64,000 bases of DNA, from the NCBI RefSeq assembly GCF_001419745.1, contig NZ_LIRJ01000101.1:1-64000 (forward strand). The letters are read 5' to 3'. The DNA is from Streptomyces silaceus (lineage in GTDB: Bacteria > Actinomycetota > Actinomycetes > Streptomycetales > Streptomycetaceae). Below, piece by piece: positions 41,036 through 51,467 of this stretch. The notes below the pieces were generated by a model that was not told where the DNA came from, ran no database searches, and saw only the letters and a program-made list of their open reading frames with translations. Position numbers and translations under genes: made by a program. Within the stretch, counting starts at the first letter, position 1, and every line of letters begins with the position of its first letter.

Positions 41036-41915
41036 TCGGTTCCGGGTGCTCTGGCGCCCCGGGCCCCTCCCGTCGTCGATCAGGCCGCTCGGGATCAGTC
41101 CACCTTCTCGTCGGCGATTCCCCGGCCGTCCGCCTGATCCCCCATCGGTGCTTACCTGGATTTCCGGGATTACCGGCATTGAAGGGCGTTGCTGGCACTA
41201 CTGGCGATACCGGCATTGCCGACGATCCATCAGCGCTTCACAGTTCCTGTCCAGTTTTCACACCTGGCCATGAGGGGCACGACAGCCCCCGACTGCCCAC
41301 TCGTTCAACTCACCGGGAAATACACGCTTTTGCCGAAACTGTCTGATGTGTTGACCAGGTGTTGATGGGCTGTTCGCGCAGTTCTCCGAACCACCTGGCC
41401 AAACAACTGACGGGTAGGACAGGATATCGTTTGCGGACGGCAGCCAACCGGCTTTGTTTTTCGGCATGTTGGCTGAAAAAGTGTGTCGTCGGAAGTCCGC
41501 TGTGATCGAGAGGAAGCCAGGAAGTGCTGATGAGTACGGTGAGACAGATCGGGCCCTCAAGGCGGCCTCGATGCGCCCACTGGCTCGGCTCGCCCACGGC
41601 TCCCTCCTTCCGGCCGACCCCTGGGACCGCACGCCGAACCGTGCCGTGGTCCTCGTAGTCGACCCGCTCCCTCACCCGACGGTCCTCCCCCACCAGGCGG
41701 CGCATTCGCTCCGGCCGCCCGAGACCGTCCGTGTGTCCGCGCGGCCGTCGAGCGGGCCATCCCCGTTCAGCCGATCGCGGGCGGCGCGTTCCGTGTCGGG
41801 CCGTTCGCCCCGTCGGCCGCAGCCGGCACTTCTCCCCGCACGTGTTGCCGTCACTCCGTCCGTTCGGCGGCGCCCGGCTGCCCTGCTCCCCCATTGACAC
41901 CTGTAAGAGGACGTG
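41036..41915. other. 880-bp intergenic region before the conservon
   Basis: No frame here has protein-like composition with a ribosome site. Features present: an 11-bp direct repeat TACCGGCATTG (41171 and 41208); a low-GC zone at about 41280-41500, likely the conservon promoter region; and an inverted repeat (41441-41475, listed separately). The remainder (41500-41900) is GC-rich and could encode an untranslated leader. Confidence 0.6.
41441..41475. promoter_or_regulatory. Inverted repeat in the low-GC region upstream of the conservon
   Basis: CAGCCAAC (41441-41448) and GTTGGCTG (41468-41475) are perfect complements separated by 19 bases containing a T-rich stretch. The form could be a protein-binding site or a hairpin. 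It lies about 440 bases ahead of cvnA in the least GC-rich part of the window. Confidence 0.4.
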
Positions 41916-43352
41916 ATGACAGACCTGATACAGGCCACCTCGGTGGTTCCCTCAGTTCTGGCCCTGGCCGCCGGCGGCGCGGCCTGGCGGTTCTGGGACC
42001 AGTACCGGGGCGAGCGCCGTACCGGCGACCGCCTCCGTGAACAGGCCGCGGAGCTCGCCGGGCGCCAGCGCGCCACCGAAGACGTGCTGATGCAGCTCGC
42101 GGGCGGTGTGATTCCCGGACTCGGGGCCGAGGCCGCGCGTCAGGGCACCGGCCGCGGGGTCGACATCGAGCTGCCCCCGGCGCTGGTGAACACCGTCCTC
42201 GCCCAGCGCCTGACGGAGTTGGCCAACTCCGCGGCGCACACCGTACGCAAGGTGCAGTACGACGCGCAGACCAGCACGAGCGCCCAGATCACCGAGGCGC
42301 AGCAGACCGCGCAGGACGAGACCGACCGCGCGCGGGTCTCCGCGCAGGAGTCCAGCCGCGCCGCGGTGCGCGCCGTGTCCTCCGCCATGGTGGGCATGGC
42401 GTCGAAGCTGAGCCAGCGGGTCAGCCAGGGTGTGCGGCGGCACGAGGGCGACGAGGCGTACGAGACGCTCGTCGGCATCGACCACCCCACGCAGCAGATG
42501 CTGCTCGTCGCCCAGAACTACGTGGTCCTGTCCGGCGGCAAGCTGTCGCGCCGGTGGCCGGCCACCCCGATGACCGATGTGGTGCGGGCCGCGATGGGCA
42601 GCATCGAGGAGTACGAGCGGGTCGAGCACCAGGAGCTCGACGTCGCGGTGACGAGCCGGGCCGTCGGGCCCATCGTCCACGCGCTCGCCGTACTGCTGGA
42701 CAACGCGGTCCGCTACTCGCCCTCCACGGCCCGCGTGCACGTCGCCTTCCAGGAGGGGCACCACGGAGTCTCGGTCATCGTGGACGACGCCGGTCTGCGC
42801 ATGAACGACGAGCAACTCACGTGGGCCCGGGCCATTTTGACGGGTGCTCAGCGCGACGACATCAACCAGCTCGGCGCGCACCCGCAGACCGGTCTGCGGG
42901 CCGCCGCCGCCCTCGCCGGGGACTACGGTTTCCGGATCGACGTCGAGGCTCCCAACCCGTTCGGCGGGACCCGCGTCTACATGTTCGTACCCAAGAGTCT
43001 GCTGACCTCCGCACCCGTGCCCAAGCCCCGTTCCGCACCCGCGCCCGCACCCGCAGCCACTCCCGCGCCGGCGCCCGCGCCCGCTCCGGCACCCGTCGCG
43101 GCGGTGCCCGCCGAGCCGGTCGCCGAGCCCGTCGCCGCGCCGCGCACCACCGCCAGCGGGCTGACCGTCCGGACGCGGACGCGTCCCACGCCTCCCGCGG
43201 CCGAGCGGCCGGCCGCCCCCTCCGAGGACACCGCGGGCCCGGCGGCCCCGGCCCCGGGCCGTCCCTCCATCGCCGCCGCCTGGGCCAAGGGCACGCGCAG
43301 CGCGCGTACCCCGGACCCGTCCACCACCACGCACGAAGGAGCCCAACCGTGA
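41916..43352 (+). CDS. cvnA: Conservon sensor CvnA, histidine kinase-like ATPase
   Basis: The protein is 478 residues from the ATG at 41916, 5 bases after AAGAGG. A short N-terminal membrane segment (VPSVLALAAGGAAWRF) is followed by a long coiled-coil signalling helix rich in Ala/Gln. The kinase core has the H-box-like GIDHPTQQMLLVAQNYVVLS, the N box LLDNAVRYSP and a degenerate G box. The 110-residue tail is Pro/Ala repeats. In Streptomyces conservons CvnA is membrane-bound and acts with CvnB-D as a sensor/GTPase complex. It begins the coupled gene run A-B-C-D-P450. Confidence 0.93.
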   Translation: MTDLIQATSVVPSVLALAAGGAAWRFWDQYRGERRTGDRLREQAAELAGRQRATEDVLMQLAGGVIPGLGAEAARQGTGRGVDIELPPALVNTVLAQRLTELANSAAHTVRKVQYDAQTSTSAQITEAQQTAQDETDRARVSAQESSRAAVRAVSSAMVGMASKLSQRVSQGVRRHEGDEAYETLVGIDHPTQQMLLVAQNYVVLSGGKLSRRWPATPMTDVVRAAMGSIEEYERVEHQELDVAVTSRAVGPIVHALAVLLDNAVRYSPSTARVHVAFQEGHHGVSVIVDDAGLRMNDEQLTWARAILTGAQRDDINQLGAHPQTGLRAAAALAGDYGFRIDVEAPNPFGGTRVYMFVPKSLLTSAPVPKPRSAPAPAPAATPAPAPAPAPAPVAAVPAEPVAEPVAAPRTTASGLTVRTRTRPTPPAAERPAAPSEDTAGPAAPAPGRPSIAAAWAKGTRSARTPDPSTTTHEGAQP

Positions 43353-43765
43353 CCACCGGCAATGAACTTGGCTGGCTGCTGGACCGTTCACTGGGGACTC
43401 TGGAAGGTGTCAGGCACGCGGTCCTGATGAGCTCCGACGGTCTGCTGCACTCGCGTACGTCCGACATCGAGCAGGACGACGCGGAGAAGTTCGCCGCGAT
43501 CACCGCCGCGGTCCGGGCCGCCGCGCTGGCGTACGACCAGGAGACCGGCGGCGGGGGCACCCGGCAGGCGCTGATCGAGCTGACCAACCACGTGGGTCTG
43601 ATCACCCAGGCCGGCGGCAACACCATGCTCTCCGTGCAGACCACGGGTCCGGACGCCGACATCGGCCTGATCACCCATCACATGCTGGAGCTGGCCCAGC
43701 GCGTCGGTCACGAGATGAAGGTCGCCCCGCGGCAGCCTTCCGTCGAAGGCCTCCCGACGACGTGA
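43349..43765 (+). CDS. cvnB: Conservon roadblock/LC7 protein CvnB
   Basis: The 138-residue protein starts at a GTG whose GTGA overlaps the CvnA stop. It has the roadblock/LC7 fold: LDRSLGTLEGVRHAVLMSSD, EKFAAITAAVRAAALAYDQE, then TMLSVQTTGPDADIGLITHH. Roadblock proteins act as GTPase-activating or regulatory dimers; in conservons CvnB partners the CvnD GTPase. It is coupled on both sides. Confidence 0.95.
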   Translation: MTTGNELGWLLDRSLGTLEGVRHAVLMSSDGLLHSRTSDIEQDDAEKFAAITAAVRAAALAYDQETGGGGTRQALIELTNHVGLITQAGGNTMLSVQTTGPDADIGLITHHMLELAQRVGHEMKVAPRQPSVEGLPTT

Positions 43766-44118
43766 GCGGGCCGCGGCGAGACCCGGACCTGGTCAGGCCC
43801 TACGTCCGTACCGACGGGCGTACGCGTGCCCATCCGGATGTGCGCCTGGAGACCGTGGTGCTCGCCGCGAGCGGCCCGCGCGAGGGTCTGAGTGCGGACG
43901 CGCGGCGGGTGATGAGCCTCTTCGGCAACGCCAGGGGCGGCGGTCTGGCGGTCGCGGACATCGCGGCCGCCCTGGAGTTCCCTCCCTCCACCGTCCGCAT
44001 CATCGTCTCCTCCCTCATCGACGAGGGACTGCTGACCCGGCCGGTCCCCGCCGGCGAAGACCAACCCGAAACCGATCTGCTCCAGGAGGTACTGCGTGGT
44101 CTCCGCGCCCTCGTCTGA
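43762..44118 (+). CDS. cvnC: Conservon DUF742 protein CvnC
   Basis: This 118-residue protein matches the DUF742 family: RPYVRTDGRTRAHPDVRLET, then LAVADIAAALEFPPSTVRII, VSSLIDEGLLTRP, a winged-helix-like unit. The GTG start overlaps the CvnB stop by 4 bases, and its own end overlaps CvnD by 23 bases. In conservons it is an adaptor in the CvnA-D complex and may bind DNA or protein. Confidence 0.95.
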   Translation: MSGPRRDPDLVRPYVRTDGRTRAHPDVRLETVVLAASGPREGLSADARRVMSLFGNARGGGLAVADIAAALEFPPSTVRIIVSSLIDEGLLTRPVPAGEDQPETDLLQEVLRGLRALV

Positions 44119-44707
44119 CGGCCTCATCTATGTGCCCCCCGGCGTGACCCGCTCCGCGAAGATCGTGATCTCGGGAAGTTTCGGTGTCGGCAAGACGACG
44201 TTCGTCGGGAGCGTCTCCCAGATACCGCCGCTGCGCATGGAGGAGCGGATCACCCAGGCCAGTGCGGGAGTGGACGACCTGGCGCGGACGCCGCGCAAGA
44301 CGACCACGACGGTCGGTCTGGACTTCGGGCGGCTGCACCTGAGCGACGCCCTCGTGCTGTATCTGTTCGGCACCCCCGGTCAGGACCGCTTCCGCCCGCT
44401 GTGGGCGGGGCTGACCGAGGGTGCGCTCGGGGCGCTGGTGCTGGTCGACACCCGCAATCTGGAGGCCTCCTTCGAGATCCTCGCCCTGCACGAGGCGCAG
44501 GGCACGCCCTACGCCGTGGCGATCAATCTGTTCGACGGCGCCCCGTACTACCAGCTGGACGAGATCCGTCAGGCCCTGGACCTGGACCCGCACACGCCGC
44601 TGACGACGTGCGACGCGCGTGAGGGCAGCTCCGGCGTCATGGCCCTGATCACCCTCTGCGAGTACCTGTCCGACCTGAAAGCACCTGCCTTGGAGCCGCG
44701 CCCGTGA
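44096..44707 (+). CDS. cvnD: Conservon GTPase CvnD (ATP/GTP-binding, Ras-like)
   Basis: The 203-residue protein is a small G protein. The P loop is SGSFGVGKTTFVGSVSQ, Thr in TTTTVGLDFGRL is switch I, and LFGTPGQDRF is switch II with the G3 motif. The base-recognition motif is changed, with VAINLFDG in place of NKxD, as in other conservon GTPases. It overlaps CvnC by 23 bases and is followed by the P450 gene overlapping by GTGA. Confidence 0.95.
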   Translation: MVSAPSSDGLIYVPPGVTRSAKIVISGSFGVGKTTFVGSVSQIPPLRMEERITQASAGVDDLARTPRKTTTTVGLDFGRLHLSDALVLYLFGTPGQDRFRPLWAGLTEGALGALVLVDTRNLEASFEILALHEAQGTPYAVAINLFDGAPYYQLDEIRQALDLDPHTPLTTCDAREGSSGVMALITLCEYLSDLKAPALEPRP

Positions 44708-45909
44708 CCAGCCCGACCACGATCCCCGAGGCGCCGGTGCGCCGGATCGCCCTGTACGACGCCGAGTTCGCGGCCGATCCGCACGCCGCGTACGAGCGCA
44801 TGCGGGCCGAGTTCGGACCGTTCGTCCCGGTGGACCTCGTCCCCGGGGTCCCGGCGACCCTCGTCATCGGTTACTCCCAGGCCCGGCGGATCCTCAACGA
44901 CCCCCTGCGCTTCCCGGCCGACCCGCGGGTGTGGGAGCAGTCCGTTCCGCAGAGCTGCCCGGTCCGTCCCATGATGGAGAGCCGCCCCAACGCGCTGCGG
45001 TCCACCGGTGCGGCGCACACCCGCTACCGGTCGGCGAACACGGCCGCGATCAACGGCGTCGACCAGCACGAGCTGCGCACCCTCGTCGAGCAGGTCGCCG
45101 ATGCCACGATCGCCGAGTTCCGGGCGGCCGAGGGCGCGGACCTGCTGGTCCAGTACGCCTGGCCCATCGCCTTCCGGGTGCTGAGCGCCCTGCTCGGCTG
45201 CCCCGACGAGATCGGCCGCCGGATCGCCGACGGCATGGCCAAGATCTTCGAGGGCGTGGACGCCGCCAGCGGCAACGAGATCCTCTCGCAGGCCGTCGCC
45301 GACCTGGTGAACCTGCGCCACCAGCAGCCCGGTGACGACATCACCTCCCGGCTCCTGGCGCACGCCGCGCAGCTCGACGACGTCGAGATGGCCCATCAGC
45401 TCGTCACGCTCTACGGCGCCGGCATCGAACCGCTCACCAACCTCATCTCCAACACCGTCCTGAAGATCCTCACGGACGACCAGTTCTCCGGCGATCTGCA
45501 CGCCGGCGGCTCCTCGGTCCGCGAGGCGCTCGACACGGTGCTGTATACCGACCCGCCCCTGGCCAACTACTGCATCAGCTATCCGCCCAACCCCGTCGAC
45601 GTCGACGGGTTCCTGCTGCCCGCGCACGAGCCGGTCGTCATCTCGATGGCCGCCTGCAACAACGATCCCGTCCTCGGGGAACAGCGCATCGCCAGCAATC
45701 GCGCGCACCTGTCCTGGAGCACCGGCCCGCACGCCTGCCCCGCGCGTCCGCACGCCTACCTCATCGCCGAGACGGCCATCACCCATCTGCTCGACGCGCT
45801 GCCCGAGATGGATCTCGCCACGGCGCCGGGTGAGCTGACGTGGCGTCCCGGGCCGTTCCACCGGGCACTGGCCGCGCTTCCTGTCGTGTTCCCCGCCGCA
45901 TCAGCCTGA
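44704..45909 (+). CDS. Conservon cytochrome P450, CYP157-like, lacking ExxR
   Basis: This 401-residue P450 is coupled to CvnD (GTGA). The heme-binding loop is STGPHACPARPH with Cys345. The K-helix motif ExxR, otherwise nearly universal, is absent: the segment DTVLY at residues 277-281 carries Thr278 and Tyr281 where Glu and Arg are expected. The I helix reads YGAGIEPLTNLIS instead of the usual AGxET. This matches the CYP157 family, which is known to lack ExxR and to lie in conservons beside a CYP154. Such members may serve structural or regulatory roles, but activity cannot be ruled out. Confidence 0.9.
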   Translation: MTSPTTIPEAPVRRIALYDAEFAADPHAAYERMRAEFGPFVPVDLVPGVPATLVIGYSQARRILNDPLRFPADPRVWEQSVPQSCPVRPMMESRPNALRSTGAAHTRYRSANTAAINGVDQHELRTLVEQVADATIAEFRAAEGADLLVQYAWPIAFRVLSALLGCPDEIGRRIADGMAKIFEGVDAASGNEILSQAVADLVNLRHQQPGDDITSRLLAHAAQLDDVEMAHQLVTLYGAGIEPLTNLISNTVLKILTDDQFSGDLHAGGSSVREALDTVLYTDPPLANYCISYPPNPVDVDGFLLPAHEPVVISMAACNNDPVLGEQRIASNRAHLSWSTGPHACPARPHAYLIAETAITHLLDALPEMDLATAPGELTWRPGPFHRALAALPVVFPAASA

Positions 45910-45922
45910 AGGGACCTCCGCC

Positions 45923-47155
45923 ATGTCCTCGACCACGACACCGATCACGCTCGACCCGACCGGGTTCCGCGCCCACGACGAGCACCGGGAGCTGCGCAAG
46001 CACGGCAGCGCGGTCCGCGTCGACATTCTCGGCGTGACCGCCTGGTCCGTCTCCGATCCCGCTCTCCTCAAGGAGTTGCTGACCAGCGCGAACGTCTCCA
46101 AGGACGCGCGCGCCCACTGGCCGGAGTTCCAGGAGACGGTCCAGCGCTGGCCGCTCGCCCTGTGGATCGCGGTGGAGAACATGTTCACCGCGTTCGGCGC
46201 CGACCACCGGCGTCTGCGCCGCATGGTCGCCCCCGCCTTCAGCCACCGCCGCATCACCGCCCTCCAGCAGAACATCGACACCATCGTCACCGGCATCCTC
46301 GACGACCTCGCCGCTCTCGCCCCCGGTGAGACGGTCGACCTGCGCGAGCGCCTCGCCTACCCGCTGCCGATCGCGGTGATCGGCGACTTGATGGGCGTAC
46401 CGGCCGGCCAGCGGGACGCCTTCCGTCAGGTCGTCGACGGCGTGTTCGACACCACGCTCACCGCCGAGCAGTCCGAGGCCAACACCGCGGCCCTGTACGG
46501 GGCGCTGCAGAAGCTCATCGACTCCAAGCGCGCCGAGCCGGGCGACGACATGACCTCGCTCCTGATCACCTCGCGCGACACGGACGAGGAGGGCGGCCTG
46601 TCGGAGGACGAGCTGCGCGACACGCTCCTCCTGATGATCAGCGCCGGGTACGAGACCACGGTGAACGTCATCGACCAGGCGATCACCCAGCTGCTCACCC
46701 ACCCCGACCAGCTCACCCTCCTCCGGACGGGCAAGGTCGACTGGAACGACGCCGTCGAGGAGACCCTCCGCTTCGAGCCGGCGGTCCGGCATCTGCCGCT
46801 GCGGTACGCGGTGACCGACATCGAGCTGCCCGACGGCCAGACCATCGCCCGGGGCGAGGCGATCCTCGCCTCCTACGCGGCGGCCAACCGGCACCCCGAC
46901 TGGCACGGTGACAGCGCCGACGCCTTCGACATCAGCCGCCCGCTCAAGGAGCACCTGGCCTTCGGGCACGGCGTCCACTTCTGCCTGGGCGCCCCGCTGG
47001 CCCGCATGGAGGTCGCCACGGCCCTGCGCCTGCTCTTCGACCGCTTCCCCGACCTGGAACTCGCCGTACCGATCGAGGAGTTGCGGCCCCTGGGCTCCCT
47101 GATCAGCAACGGCCACCAGACGGTGCCGGTCCGGCTCGGACGGGGCACCGCCTGA
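45923..47155 (+). CDS. Conservon cytochrome P450, CYP154-like
   Basis: This 410-residue P450 is canonical: I helix LLLMISAGYETTVNVID, K helix EETLRFEPAVRHLPLRYAV with ExxR, and heme loop LAFGHGVHFCLGAPLARMEV. It starts 13 bases after the CYP157-like gene and follows GAAGGGA. CYP154 proteins in Streptomyces oxidise diverse substrates, including flavonoids, steroids and polyketides, and pair with CYP157 in conservons. It is the last gene of the conservon run. No ferredoxin gene is adjacent. Confidence 0.92.
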   Translation: MSSTTTPITLDPTGFRAHDEHRELRKHGSAVRVDILGVTAWSVSDPALLKELLTSANVSKDARAHWPEFQETVQRWPLALWIAVENMFTAFGADHRRLRRMVAPAFSHRRITALQQNIDTIVTGILDDLAALAPGETVDLRERLAYPLPIAVIGDLMGVPAGQRDAFRQVVDGVFDTTLTAEQSEANTAALYGALQKLIDSKRAEPGDDMTSLLITSRDTDEEGGLSEDELRDTLLLMISAGYETTVNVIDQAITQLLTHPDQLTLLRTGKVDWNDAVEETLRFEPAVRHLPLRYAVTDIELPDGQTIARGEAILASYAAANRHPDWHGDSADAFDISRPLKEHLAFGHGVHFCLGAPLARMEVATALRLLFDRFPDLELAVPIEELRPLGSLISNGHQTVPVRLGRGTA

Positions 47156-48272: not shown

Positions 48273-51200
48273 GTGAGCACCGATCTGACCCTGCTGCCGC
48301 GCGTCGCCCATCGCGGGCAGGAGGTCACCGCACCCCGGCTGTGCGCCCTTCTCGCCCTGCTGGCCACGGATCTGCGCGCGGGGTGCAGCGTCGGGCGGAT
48401 CGTCGAGGGGCTGTGGCCGGAGGCGCTGCCGCAGCGGCCGGGAAAGGCCGTGCAGGTGCTGGTGTCGCGGGCGCGCGCACAGTTGGGCGCCTCCGTCGTG
48501 GTCGGTACGCCGGTCGGATACCGGCTGGCGCTCACCGAGGAGCAGGTCGACAGTTCCGCCGTTCTGCTGTTCGCCGAGACCAGTGCGGAGCGTGCGCGGG
48601 GCGGGGACCACGCGGGGGCGCTGGCCGCGGCCGACGCCGGGCTCGCGCTGTGGGAGGGCGTCCCGGACGTCGTCGGCAGCGGCACGCCCGGCGATCCGGT
48701 CGTGGCGTTGCGGGCCGCGCGCGCTCCCGTACGCGATGCGCTCGTACGGGCGCGGGGGCTCGCGCTGGCCCGGCTCGGACGGCACGCGGAGGCCGCCGGG
48801 CCGCTGGCGACGGCGGCCGCGCGCCATCCGCGCGACGAAGAGGTGCTGGCCGAGTCGCTGCGGGGCCAGGCCGTCACGGCGAGTCCGTCCGCGGCGCTGG
48901 AACGGTACGAGGCCTACCGCCGTGAGCTGCGCGACGAACTGGGGACGGACCCGGGCCCCGGACTCCGGGCCGTGCAGCGGGAACTGCTGGGCGGCGGGGC
49001 GCCCGTGGTGCGGCGCGGCGTGCTCCAGGAACCCAACCCGCTGCTCGGCCGGGACCAGGACGTGGCCTCGGTCGTCCAGCTGCTGCGGGATTTTCGGGCC
49101 GTGACCGTCGTGGGCACAGGAGGGCTCGGCAAGACGCGGCTCGCGCATGCCGTCGCCAGGCGCGCCGGGCGGCGCGCGGTGTACTTCGTGCCGCTGGCCG
49201 GCGTCACCGCCGACGAGGACGTGCCCGCTGCGGTGGCCTCCGCGCTCGGCGCGGGACGACACGCTCCGGGGCGCCCCGGCGGGCCGGTCGTCCACGGTCC
49301 CGCCGATCCGGTCTCCGGTGTTCTGGGCGTGGTCGGTCCGGGGCCCGCCCTGCTCGTACTCGACAACTGCGAGCAGGTCGTCGAGGGCGTCGCCGACCTC
49401 GTCCGGGCCCTGGTGTCGTCGTCCGAGGACCTGCGCGTGCTGGCCACCAGCCGGGCTCCGCTGGACCTGCTGTCGGAATCCGTGTACGCGCTGGGCGAGC
49501 TGGGGCTCGACACGGCGGTCGAGCTCTTCTCGCAACGGGCCCGGGCGGCACGCCCCGGCGTGGAGCTGCCGCCGGGCGCAGTGTCCGACCTGTGCCGTCA
49601 CCTCGACGGCCTGCCGCTCGCCGTGGAACTGGCCGCCGTGCGCGTACGAGTCCTGTCGGTCGCGGAGATCGCCCGCCGCATCGGCGACCGGTTCGCCCTG
49701 CTGCGCGGCGGGCCACGGGACGTACCGGAGCGGCATCGCACGCTGCACGCCGTCGTGGAGTGGAGCTGGAACCTGCTGGGCGAGGACGCCCGCGCCGCGA
49801 TGCGCCTCCTGTCCGTCTTCCCCGCCGGGTTCTCCGGCGAGGCCGCCGAACGGGTGTGGGGCCCGGACGCGCTGGGCGTACTGGAACAGCTCGCCGGTCA
49901 GTCACTGCTCACGGTCACGGACACCCCGGCCGGAGTGCGGTTCCGGATGCTGGAAACGGTACGGGAGTTCAGTGCGGCCCGCCGGGCGGCGGCAGGCGAG
50001 GACGAGACAGCCGTGGCTCATCTCCTGGCGTGGGCACAGGACTTCGGGCTCGCGCATCACGAGTCGCTCTTCGCACCCCGGCTGTCCGCCGAGCGCTGGG
50101 GGCGGATCAGGGCCGAGCAGGACAACCTGGTCCTGGCCCTCCGGCACGCGCTGGTCCGCTCGGACGGCCCCACCACGGCCGCGGTGACCGCCCTCCTCGC
50201 CGCCTTGTGGTCCACCGACTCCAACTATCCCCGCCTGACCGCCCTCGCCTCCGCCACCGCTCCCCCGCTCTCCCACTACCGCCCCGACCCTCCGTACGTC
50301 GAGGCCGCCCGCACCGCGGCGGTGCTCTGCGCGGCGGGCCTGTCCATGAGTTCGGGACCGCGCCACCCCGGCGTCCTGCGCTCGCTCGTCACCCTCCGCC
50401 GCCTGCCTCCCGCACGGCCGGACACTGCTGTGCGTGCCTTGGCCGTGGTCCTCGCGGCCGTCCCGGAGACGGTGCCGCCCGAGCACCATGTGCTGCGCGG
50501 GCTCTGCGCCGACGCGCGGCCGCTGGTCGCCGGGATGGCCGAGTGCGTGGCCACCTACGTCTGGGAGTACGAGCACGACGTGACCCGCGCGATCGCCGCG
50601 GCACGGCGCACGGTCGACGCACTGGTGCCGGGTGCCCCGCAGTCCTTCCAGGTGGTGGCCCATGCACGGCTGGGTGAGCTGTGCCTGCGGACGGAGCAGG
50701 GCGAGGTCGCGTACCGGCATCTGACCGCGGCGCTCGACGTGCTGCCGCGTCTGGGCGACGAGCACGACGCCATCGGGATCCGCCGGGGCCTTGCGCTGGC
50801 CTGTCTGCAGCGCGGAGAGGCGGACGAGGCGGAGTGCTGGCTGCGGGACGCCGACAGCGGTGCCGCTGTCACCGCTGGCGTCGAGGGCGGCGGTGTTCCG
50901 CGGCAGGACGCCTACTACAGCCCCGGCCTCGGTGAACGCGCCGAGGTCGCTCTCGCCCGCGGACGGACGGAGGCCGGTCTGGGGCTGTGGCGCACGGCGG
51001 TGGAACAGCTGACGTCGGCCGGTCCGTCGCGCGGGGACGGGGAACGGCTCGATCCGTGGGAACTGGAGGTCCGGTCGGTGGCGGTGACGGCTCACGCGCA
51101 CGCCGGGCGGCCGGAGCTGGTGACGGAGTCGGTCGGCCGACTGGAGCGGCAGCTGCGGGACCTGCTTCTGGGCCCGGCCGGTACGCCCATGGATCTGCCG

Positions 51201-51467
51201 GTGGTGGGGACGGTTCTGCATGCGCTCGGCATGGCGGGGCTCGCGGCCACGACCGGTCGGCGAGCCCGCCCGGTACGGATGATCGCGCTGGCCGAACGGC
51301 TCCACGTGCTGCGGCAGTTCCAGCCGACGATGTCCACGGCCCGTGCCCGTGAGGCCGCCCGGAACGCCGACGCGGCGGCGTACGCCGAGGCCGTGTCGGC
51401 GTACGCCGCTCTGGGGCGGGCGGAGTTGGGCGAGGCGGCCCGCGCCCTTATGCCGGATCGCGGTTGA
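48273..51467 (+). CDS. BTAD/NB-ARC regulator (AfsR/SARP-like)
   Basis: This 1064-residue protein begins with a winged-helix region that is partly degenerate (RIVEGLWPEALPQRPGKAVQ, then LVSRARAQLG). A bacterial transcriptional activation domain follows (about residues 100-240; RYEAYRRELRDELGTDPGPG). The NB-ARC-type ATPase has Walker A VGTGGLGKT near 281-289 and Walker B LLVLDNCEQVVEG. The C-terminal half consists of TPR-like helices. The architecture is that of AfsR-like regulators, which link ATP binding to transcription. The gene overlaps the convergent exporter gene by 20 bases. Targets are unknown. Confidence 0.9.
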   Translation: MSTDLTLLPRVAHRGQEVTAPRLCALLALLATDLRAGCSVGRIVEGLWPEALPQRPGKAVQVLVSRARAQLGASVVVGTPVGYRLALTEEQVDSSAVLLFAETSAERARGGDHAGALAAADAGLALWEGVPDVVGSGTPGDPVVALRAARAPVRDALVRARGLALARLGRHAEAAGPLATAAARHPRDEEVLAESLRGQAVTASPSAALERYEAYRRELRDELGTDPGPGLRAVQRELLGGGAPVVRRGVLQEPNPLLGRDQDVASVVQLLRDFRAVTVVGTGGLGKTRLAHAVARRAGRRAVYFVPLAGVTADEDVPAAVASALGAGRHAPGRPGGPVVHGPADPVSGVLGVVGPGPALLVLDNCEQVVEGVADLVRALVSSSEDLRVLATSRAPLDLLSESVYALGELGLDTAVELFSQRARAARPGVELPPGAVSDLCRHLDGLPLAVELAAVRVRVLSVAEIARRIGDRFALLRGGPRDVPERHRTLHAVVEWSWNLLGEDARAAMRLLSVFPAGFSGEAAERVWGPDALGVLEQLAGQSLLTVTDTPAGVRFRMLETVREFSAARRAAAGEDETAVAHLLAWAQDFGLAHHESLFAPRLSAERWGRIRAEQDNLVLALRHALVRSDGPTTAAVTALLAALWSTDSNYPRLTALASATAPPLSHYRPDPPYVEAARTAAVLCAAGLSMSSGPRHPGVLRSLVTLRRLPPARPDTAVRALAVVLAAVPETVPPEHHVLRGLCADARPLVAGMAECVATYVWEYEHDVTRAIAAARRTVDALVPGAPQSFQVVAHARLGELCLRTEQGEVAYRHLTAALDVLPRLGDEHDAIGIRRGLALACLQRGEADEAECWLRDADSGAAVTAGVEGGGVPRQDAYYSPGLGERAEVALARGRTEAGLGLWRTAVEQLTSAGPSRGDGERLDPWELEVRSVAVTAHAHAGRPELVTESVGRLERQLRDLLLGPAGTPMDLPVVGTVLHALGMAGLAATTGRRARPVRMIALAERLHVLRQFQPTMSTARAREAARNADAAAYAEAVSAYAALGRAELGEAARALMPDRG

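Follow-up and report, generated by a model that had tools for sequence, protein, structure and literature searches.

The window, that is, the whole 64,000-nucleotide stretch of Streptomyces silaceus DNA analyzed here (contig NZ_LIRJ01000101.1, positions 1 to 64,000), contains six consecutive genes in which a conservon, an actinobacterial G-protein system, is followed by two P450-type genes (Table 1). According to the ORF-finder coordinates, cvnA, cvnB, cvnC and cvnD overlap serially, and cvnD overlaps by 4 bases the start of the CYP157-type gene, which occupies the fifth place counting from cvnA, i.e. four genes on. The conservon immediately upstream had been omitted from the original prediction. 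HATPase_c is the sole Pfam match of CvnA at 0.001, and the hydrophobicity profile of this protein exhibits a weak N-terminal stretch and one peak at residues 244-262, where the HATPase domain begins. The sixth gene had been described as a normal CYP154 and this assignment was confirmed, its ETLR motif being intact and its top PDB match being CYP154A1 (1odo) with 608 bits, while the runner-up reaches 278. In S. coelicolor, CYP154A1 is associated with polyketide synthesis and with the cyclization of a cellular dipentaenone, according to a table entry in the available part of PMC7369989. No glycosyltransferase was found among the six genes scanned at the locus. Downstream, a 1064-aa ORF (48273-51467) resembles by eye an AfsR/SARP-type regulator.

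Table 1. Genes and sequence features of the conservon–P450 locus (positions in the window)
Feature	Coordinates	Strand	Basis or remark
cvnA: HATPase_c without any sensory (NIT) domain match	41913..43352	+	Pfam
cvnB: Roadblock/LC7	43349..43765	+	Pfam
cvnC: DUF742	43762..44118	+	Pfam
cvnD: GTPase-like (Pfam ATP_bind_1)	44096..44707	+	start codon per ORF list
CYP157-type, ExxR-less P450-fold protein (CvnE position), 401 aa, GTG start	44704..45909	+	
C-helix H105xxxR109	45016..45030	+	H105 in 90/92 and R109 in 92/92 Y/F rows
Helix I A239-G-I-E-P243: acid retained, conserved Thr replaced by Pro	45418..45432	+	
K-helix D277-T278-V-L-Y281, where P450s have (E)E-x-x-R	45532..45546	+	phmmer, model, MAFFT
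Short meander, 12 residues from P322 to H335	45670..45705	+	
Cys345-Pro346-Ala347: heme-ligand Cys retained, Gly of CxG replaced by Ala347	45736..45744	+	
CYP154A1-like canonical P450	45923..47155	+	13 bases past the CYP157-type stop
Intact ExxR (E280-T-L-R283) of CYP154	46760..46771	+	

ExxR is treated as an invariant part of the P450 core and is used for recognizing P450s. In the fifth gene, the K-helix Glu and Arg had been predicted to be replaced by Thr278 (ACG, 45535-45537) and Tyr281 (TAT, 45544-45546), which was borne out by the phmmer alignment to PikC, by a helix at residues 272-282 in the AlphaFold2 model and by a MAFFT alignment with canonical P450s. When a better-placed Glu-x-x-Arg was sought in the K-helix, the only ExxR occurrences were at residues 31-34 and 169-172; between residues 265 and 290, not even the relaxed pattern [EDQ]xx[RKH] begins. 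The retention of Cys345 and the alteration of the I-helix motif (AGIEP, with Pro243 for Thr) were likewise as claimed. Orthologs with 94 and 90% identity share VREALDTVLYTDP, and an 87% ortholog shares TVLY. Among the fetched loci of this genome, ExxR lies 20-110 residues upstream of 33 of the 36 P450 heme motifs, a regular-expression count in which so short a motif can arise by chance (one further match has no heme motif); the three exceptions are the window protein together with two relatives, whose motifs are EVLW and EVMW. Since orthologs share the residues and most P450 motifs of the genome have ExxR, the Thr/Tyr pair is neither chance nor a sequencing error. As the fetched loci cover the best matches only, the genome may have further P450s.

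With respect to family profiles, the window protein reaches 17.6 bits against a Pfam p450 (PF00067) cut-off of 22.8, has no match to this profile at 0.001, and is absent from a genome-wide PF00067 search, which lists the CYP154 and nothing at 44704-45909. Counts based on PF00067 can therefore miss the CYP157-type group. At E values up to 0.01, however, the profile matches 21 of the 36 aligned orthologs, the window protein included. A phmmer search of the PDB retrieved 302 sequences up to E 0.1, the best being PikC (9.8e-39, residues 6-395). In the AlphaFold2 model, built from 36 sequences with a mean pLDDT of 81.6, the overall architecture leads Foldseek exclusively to P450s among the 50 matches listed, including CYP154C2 (TM 0.87/0.88) and CYP154C4 (about 0.87). 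Collectively, the phmmer, ortholog Pfam, model and Foldseek results indicate that the window protein is, as modelled, a P450 fold carrying Thr278 and Tyr281 in its K-helix.

The absence of ExxR agrees with CYP157, for which the accessible text of PMC3599690 reports the motifs EVLW (CYP157A), EQSLW (CYP157C1) and EQILW (CYP157C) and a link to an upstream conservon; the Thr/Tyr pair differs from all three motifs. The designation as a CYP157-type, ExxR-less P450 fold holds, while the family number stays putative, with CYP156 as another candidate name: among motif-bearing representatives, none of which is a named CYP157, the window protein shares 51.6% identity with L136_2 (DEVLW), 33.8% with L191_1 (NEVLW) and 29.6% with L249_1 (EQSLW), so that only the first lies above the 40% of the family rule.

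Matches of 9.2e-46 or better were found in all 199 genomes of a genus sample. At 1e-36, matches occur in 112/393 genomes and 22/122 genera of a class sample, some of the weak ones possibly being canonical P450s, and in a phylum sample 14 of 396 genomes match at 1e-50. One scan considered the best 80 of 226 ortholog loci (58-94% identity, from Streptomyces, Kitasatospora and Nocardia). For residue statistics, sequences were drawn from 60 genus stretches, two paralog searches and a further 40 stretches representing other genera and families; these 40 were selected among the listed matches of the class sample, from which genomes of the window's genus were deliberately excluded. Group membership of a row was decided by its best BLAST query, irrespective of its motif. 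For the first alignment, identical proteins and any stretch below 700 bases or 300 residues were removed, which took the number of rows from 374 to 357; this alignment does not include loci L001-L030, and in it the window protein contributes two counts. After a recount at <99.5% identity, the aligned set comprised 247 non-redundant proteins of CYP157-like type together with 183 canonical P450s encoded at the same loci; the motif count leaves out loci L251-L280 of the phylum sample, and synteny counts, per-site counts and conservation ranks use the rows as they stood before this recount.

The Thr/Tyr pair is no individual oddity: throughout the group, residue 281 is as a rule aromatic, and residue 278 varies strongly. 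Position 281 is aromatic in 245 of the 247 CYP157-like proteins (W 145, Y 62, F 38), the two others having one Leu and one Arg, against Arg in 183/183 canonical P450s. Position 278 is Glu in all 183 canonical proteins but in only 117 of the 247 CYP157-like ones, the remainder being T 37, Q 37, D 21, A 17, H 6, R 6, L 2, S 2, M 1 and Y 1. By conservation, position 278 ranks 273rd of 383 columns over 204 group rows, while it is invariant in 155/155 canonical rows; by entropy, position 281 comes no higher than 153rd of 383, since clades of the group differ in whether they carry W, Y or F. The heme-ligand Cys is present in 247/247. At the helix-I Thr position, the group has Pro in 200/247 and Thr in 31, against Thr in 179/183 canonical P450s; the helix-I acid is retained in 91/92 of the rows with Tyr or Phe at position 281 (Y/F rows). 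The residue following Cys is Pro in 239/247 and Ser in 8, against Pro in 26/183 canonical P450s. Cys-Pro was considered as a universal signature, since it occurs in 203/203 rows of the first set, but was rejected with 8 of 44 second-set rows having Cys-Ser.

The meander from P322 to H335 has 16-19 residues in 146/155 canonical rows. It is 14-15 residues long in 23/25 and 31/31 rows of two subgroups. In the larger group to which the window protein belongs, 55/56 W-type rows have 11-13 residues and 62/92 Y/F rows 11-14, the other 30 having 16, within the canonical range. The C-helix His and Arg of H105xxxR109 correspond to heme-propionate contacts of P450s, and the β1-4 Arg is a usual heme-propionate contact. 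The C-helix Arg (45028-45030 in the window) is found in 0/25 rows of the NEVLW subgroup and 179/179 elsewhere in the group; the β1-4 Arg is kept in 25/25 NEVLW and 26/31 EQ(S/T/V)LW/EVMW rows, its position being His in 53/56 W-type rows and Ser or Thr in 92/92 Y/F rows. In the alignment, CYP157-like subgroups thus lack different heme-propionate arginines.

Two quick trees were computed with no bootstrap. The first comprised 123 group members and 12 outgroup rows with motif columns excluded, and the second 50 first-set rows (5 chosen, 45 random representatives), 45 second-set rows and 9 outgroup rows. In the first tree, a starred branch parts the outgroup from the CYP157-like group, and residue states require 2 changes at position 281 (aromatic/Arg/Leu) and at least 9 at position 278 (Glu/other); with other families added, the second tree gives 3 and 9 changes, respectively. 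The extra change at 281 is due to L293_2, a CYP157-type gene beside cvnD which carries a full EALR while being nested on a long branch in the aromatic clade, and which is an apparent natural return of ExxR as judged from its placement. The Y/F proteins group in a single starred clade with 35 representatives, of which 17 carry Tyr and lack Glu, 16 combine Phe with Glu and 2 combine Tyr with Glu. Of the Y proteins without Glu, 16 fall in one starred Streptomyces/Kitasatospora clade and one is from Nocardia. The Thr/Tyr form is typical of one Streptomyces/Kitasatospora subclade. Overall, the distribution fits one old Arg to Trp change followed by repeated loss or drift of Glu, a direction suggested by outgroup rooting. 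A coupling of Tyr281 with Glu loss was also considered, as Y rows lack Glu in 60/62 and F rows have it in 29/29 (non-redundant rows), but it was rejected as not significant: there are only three independent pairs, one concordant and none opposed.

Regarding synteny, within 4 kb upstream of the best 80 of 226 loci, cvnB was found in 70, cvnC in 69, cvnD in 70 and cvnA in 58, and a CYP154-like match lies at most 1.5 kb downstream in 68, two of these being partial; several of the 80 loci without the full neighborhood are interrupted by contig ends. Across four subgroups, cvnD is immediately upstream in 75/88, 51/56, 21/25 and 28/30 genes with room for it. Where Y/F genes lack Glu, cvnD adjoins 59/59 and a canonical P450 56/56, whereas Y/F genes with Glu have them in 16/29 and 15/31, some being second copies in tandem arrays. 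The operon link is thus not obligatory, cvnD being lacking in 13/29 and the canonical P450 in 16/31 of the latter. Nearly all W-type genes have cvnD next (27/31 with Glu, 23/25 without), yet a canonical P450 adjoins only 10/31 with Glu and 0/25 without. A tie between loss of Glu278 and an adjoining CYP154 therefore holds in Y/F genes and fails in W-type genes, and the association is probably one of common descent.

Four loci of Nocardia or of the same family (L121, L122, L129, L320) carry two or three tandem CYP157-type genes, and five Nocardia loci (L107, L111, L118, L125, L126) have the gene with no conservon or CYP154 match nearby; ten ORFs flanking two such conservon-less copies revealed no common Pfam partner. 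Among plasmid records, 82 of 72,556 match at 1e-30, 68 of them from Streptomyces and four at 60-80% identity; not all need belong to the CYP157-type group, and these matches suggest that the module may move between strains. A pattern scan of viral contigs, sensitive to close relatives only, yielded no relative.

In simple Nei-Gojobori counts between the window and five orthologs, the CYP157-type gene has dN/dS values of 0.14, 0.19, 0.24, 0.28 and 0.28, lower in each pair than those of CYP154 (0.22, 0.31, 0.28, 0.50 and 0.38); the gene is under purifying selection, tighter than its canonical neighbor. Constraint on cvnD is stronger than on the CYP157-type gene in three of the five pairs, and one ortholog's cvnA was omitted for a stop in the matched stretch. 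Over 51 complete loci, partial distance correlation among the six genes is highest for the CYP157-type–CYP154 pair (0.65); over 42 Y-clade loci, this pair reaches 0.52, with cvnB–cvnC close behind at 0.50. The high value for the P450 pair may reflect that both alignments are long and of low noise.

Several explanations of this gene have to be weighed. The low Pfam score and the missing match in the genome family search could point to a decaying pseudoenzyme or a sequencing artefact, which is nevertheless extremely improbable with the same residues in orthologs of 87 to 94% identity, dN/dS of 0.14-0.28 and an invariant Cys; a pseudogene was accordingly rejected on conservation and dN/dS. It is rather unlikely, though worth serious consideration, that the gene encodes a working P450 monooxygenase or peroxygenase with a differently stabilized K-helix core and with expression under the control of the conservon. 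Such an enzyme would be consistent with the purifying selection, with the near invariance of Cys, H105, R109 and H343 in the window's group, with the similarity of the fold to CYP154C2 and CYP154C4 (TM about 0.87 among the 50 matches listed) and with the naming of CYP157 among P450 families of biosynthetic clusters in the accessible part of PMC7369989, but it has to accommodate the Pro at the helix-I Thr position, the Ser or Thr at the β1-4 Arg position of every Y/F row and a signaling operon immediately upstream in most loci examined.

The best NCBIfam match, TIGR04515 (P450-derived glycosyltransferase activator; 72 bits, E 5.6e-20), suggests another possibility, in which the protein would stabilize or activate CYP154 as the P450-derived activators EryCII and DesVIII do for glycosyltransferases. 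The canonical P450 invariably next to Y/F genes without Glu and the top-ranking partial distance correlation favor such a partnership. However, with a cut-off of 343 the score is far too low, CYP154 itself, a canonical P450, scores higher (134.7), these activators are described in the available part of PMC3391682 as having no Cys, which every protein of the group retains, and W-type genes mostly have cvnD but no canonical P450 beside them. We thus consider a role of this kind as quite unlikely, and an identity as a glycosyltransferase activator was rejected on the TIGR04515 score and the retained Cys345.

The explanation we prefer, at about even odds, is that the gene encodes a heme-thiolate P450-type accessory subunit of the conservon, in the CvnE position and partnering CYP154, instead of an ordinary monooxygenase. 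In its favor count the invariant Cys, the aromatic residue at 281, Pro at most helix-I Thr positions, the variability of position 278, cvnD immediately upstream of most genes, dN/dS below that of CYP154 in every pair, the cvnD and canonical P450 beside Y/F genes without Glu, and the partial distance correlation of the P450 pair. In the available text of PMC13343842, CvnE-type P450s overwhelmingly accompany CvnA proteins without sensory domain, AlphaFold2 predicts CvnE11 to contact the HATPase domains of CvnA11, and CvnF8, an accessory of the GAF type, binds CvnA8 and stimulates it in vitro; its introduction states that neither accessory type had previously been assessed biochemically. Taken with the HATPase_c-only CvnA found here, this literature points to the window protein as such an accessory subunit, probably an input subunit, of the conservon with CYP154 as a close partner. 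Counted against the accessory subunit are the helix-I acid (91/92), the EALR of L293_2, the rank of position 281, the 16-residue meanders, the non-obligatory operon link, the tighter constraint on cvnD in three pairs and the possible effect of alignment length and noise on the partial correlations. Some functional P450s also lack the helix-I Thr.

As a mechanism, the window protein would still bind heme via Cys345, while the aromatic residue at 281 would pack in place of the Arg-Glu-meander network and thereby relax selection on Glu278. With the helix-I Thr gone, it would not act as an ordinary O2-activating monooxygenase. As a ligand- or redox-responsive heme-thiolate subunit, it may, in concert with CYP154, influence the sensor-less CvnA, a plausible signal being the substrate or product of CYP154. 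A wider proposal, which we advance tentatively and with confidence well below even, is that the whole group is a P450-derived heme-thiolate sensor subunit for sensor-less CvnA proteins: a single ancient Arg to Trp change would have put an aromatic core in place of the ExxR/meander lock, leaving Glu nearly neutral, with the Thr/Tyr pair as the extreme form in which Cys is the last of the three classical residues and CYP154 supplies or consumes the signal. In P450cam, the thiolate loses a backbone contact through L358P, and the resulting changes resemble those upon partner binding (PMC6243089, available part). The Cys-Pro at 45736-45741 is a natural counterpart of this substitution, a parallel that is suggestive at most since some canonical P450s also have Cys-Pro.

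The natural series described here (Arg to aromatic once, Glu lost often, one apparent return of ExxR) permits the purpose of the motif to be tested, including its roles in heme loading, folding and redox coupling. If these P450s are inputs of conservons, they would be sensors and help to explain how a sensor-less CvnA receives its signal. With the window protein below the Pfam cut-off, such genes can be missed. Earlier publications already describe both that CYP157 lacks ExxR and that it is linked to conservons, and the pattern of an aromatic 281 with a variable 278 is added here: in the CYP157 literature searched, with most subscription papers outside its scope, neither the Thr/Tyr pair nor a statement of a near-constant aromatic residue at the Arg position with a drifting Glu was found.

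Compared with known systems, the window protein resembles CYP157, as described in the accessible text of PMC3599690, in its K-helix without ExxR, its retained Cys and the conservon upstream, and differs in its Thr/Tyr pair. Like CvnE proteins (PMC13343842, available text), it is encoded by the fifth gene, following cvnA to cvnD, and accompanies a CvnA without sensory-domain match, whereas its locus adds a canonical CYP154A1-like P450 as sixth gene. With EryCII, DesVIII and TIGR04515, it shares a P450 fold, eroded catalytic motifs and a possible partnership with another enzyme, but these activators are, in the part of PMC3391682 available, without the heme Cys that the CYP157-like group keeps in 247/247. 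Finally, CYP154A1 (1odo) and canonical bacterial P450s have the same overall fold, while the canonical P450 neighbors, with ExxR in 183/183 and the helix-I Thr in 179/183, differ from the window protein with its T..Y pair and Pro243.
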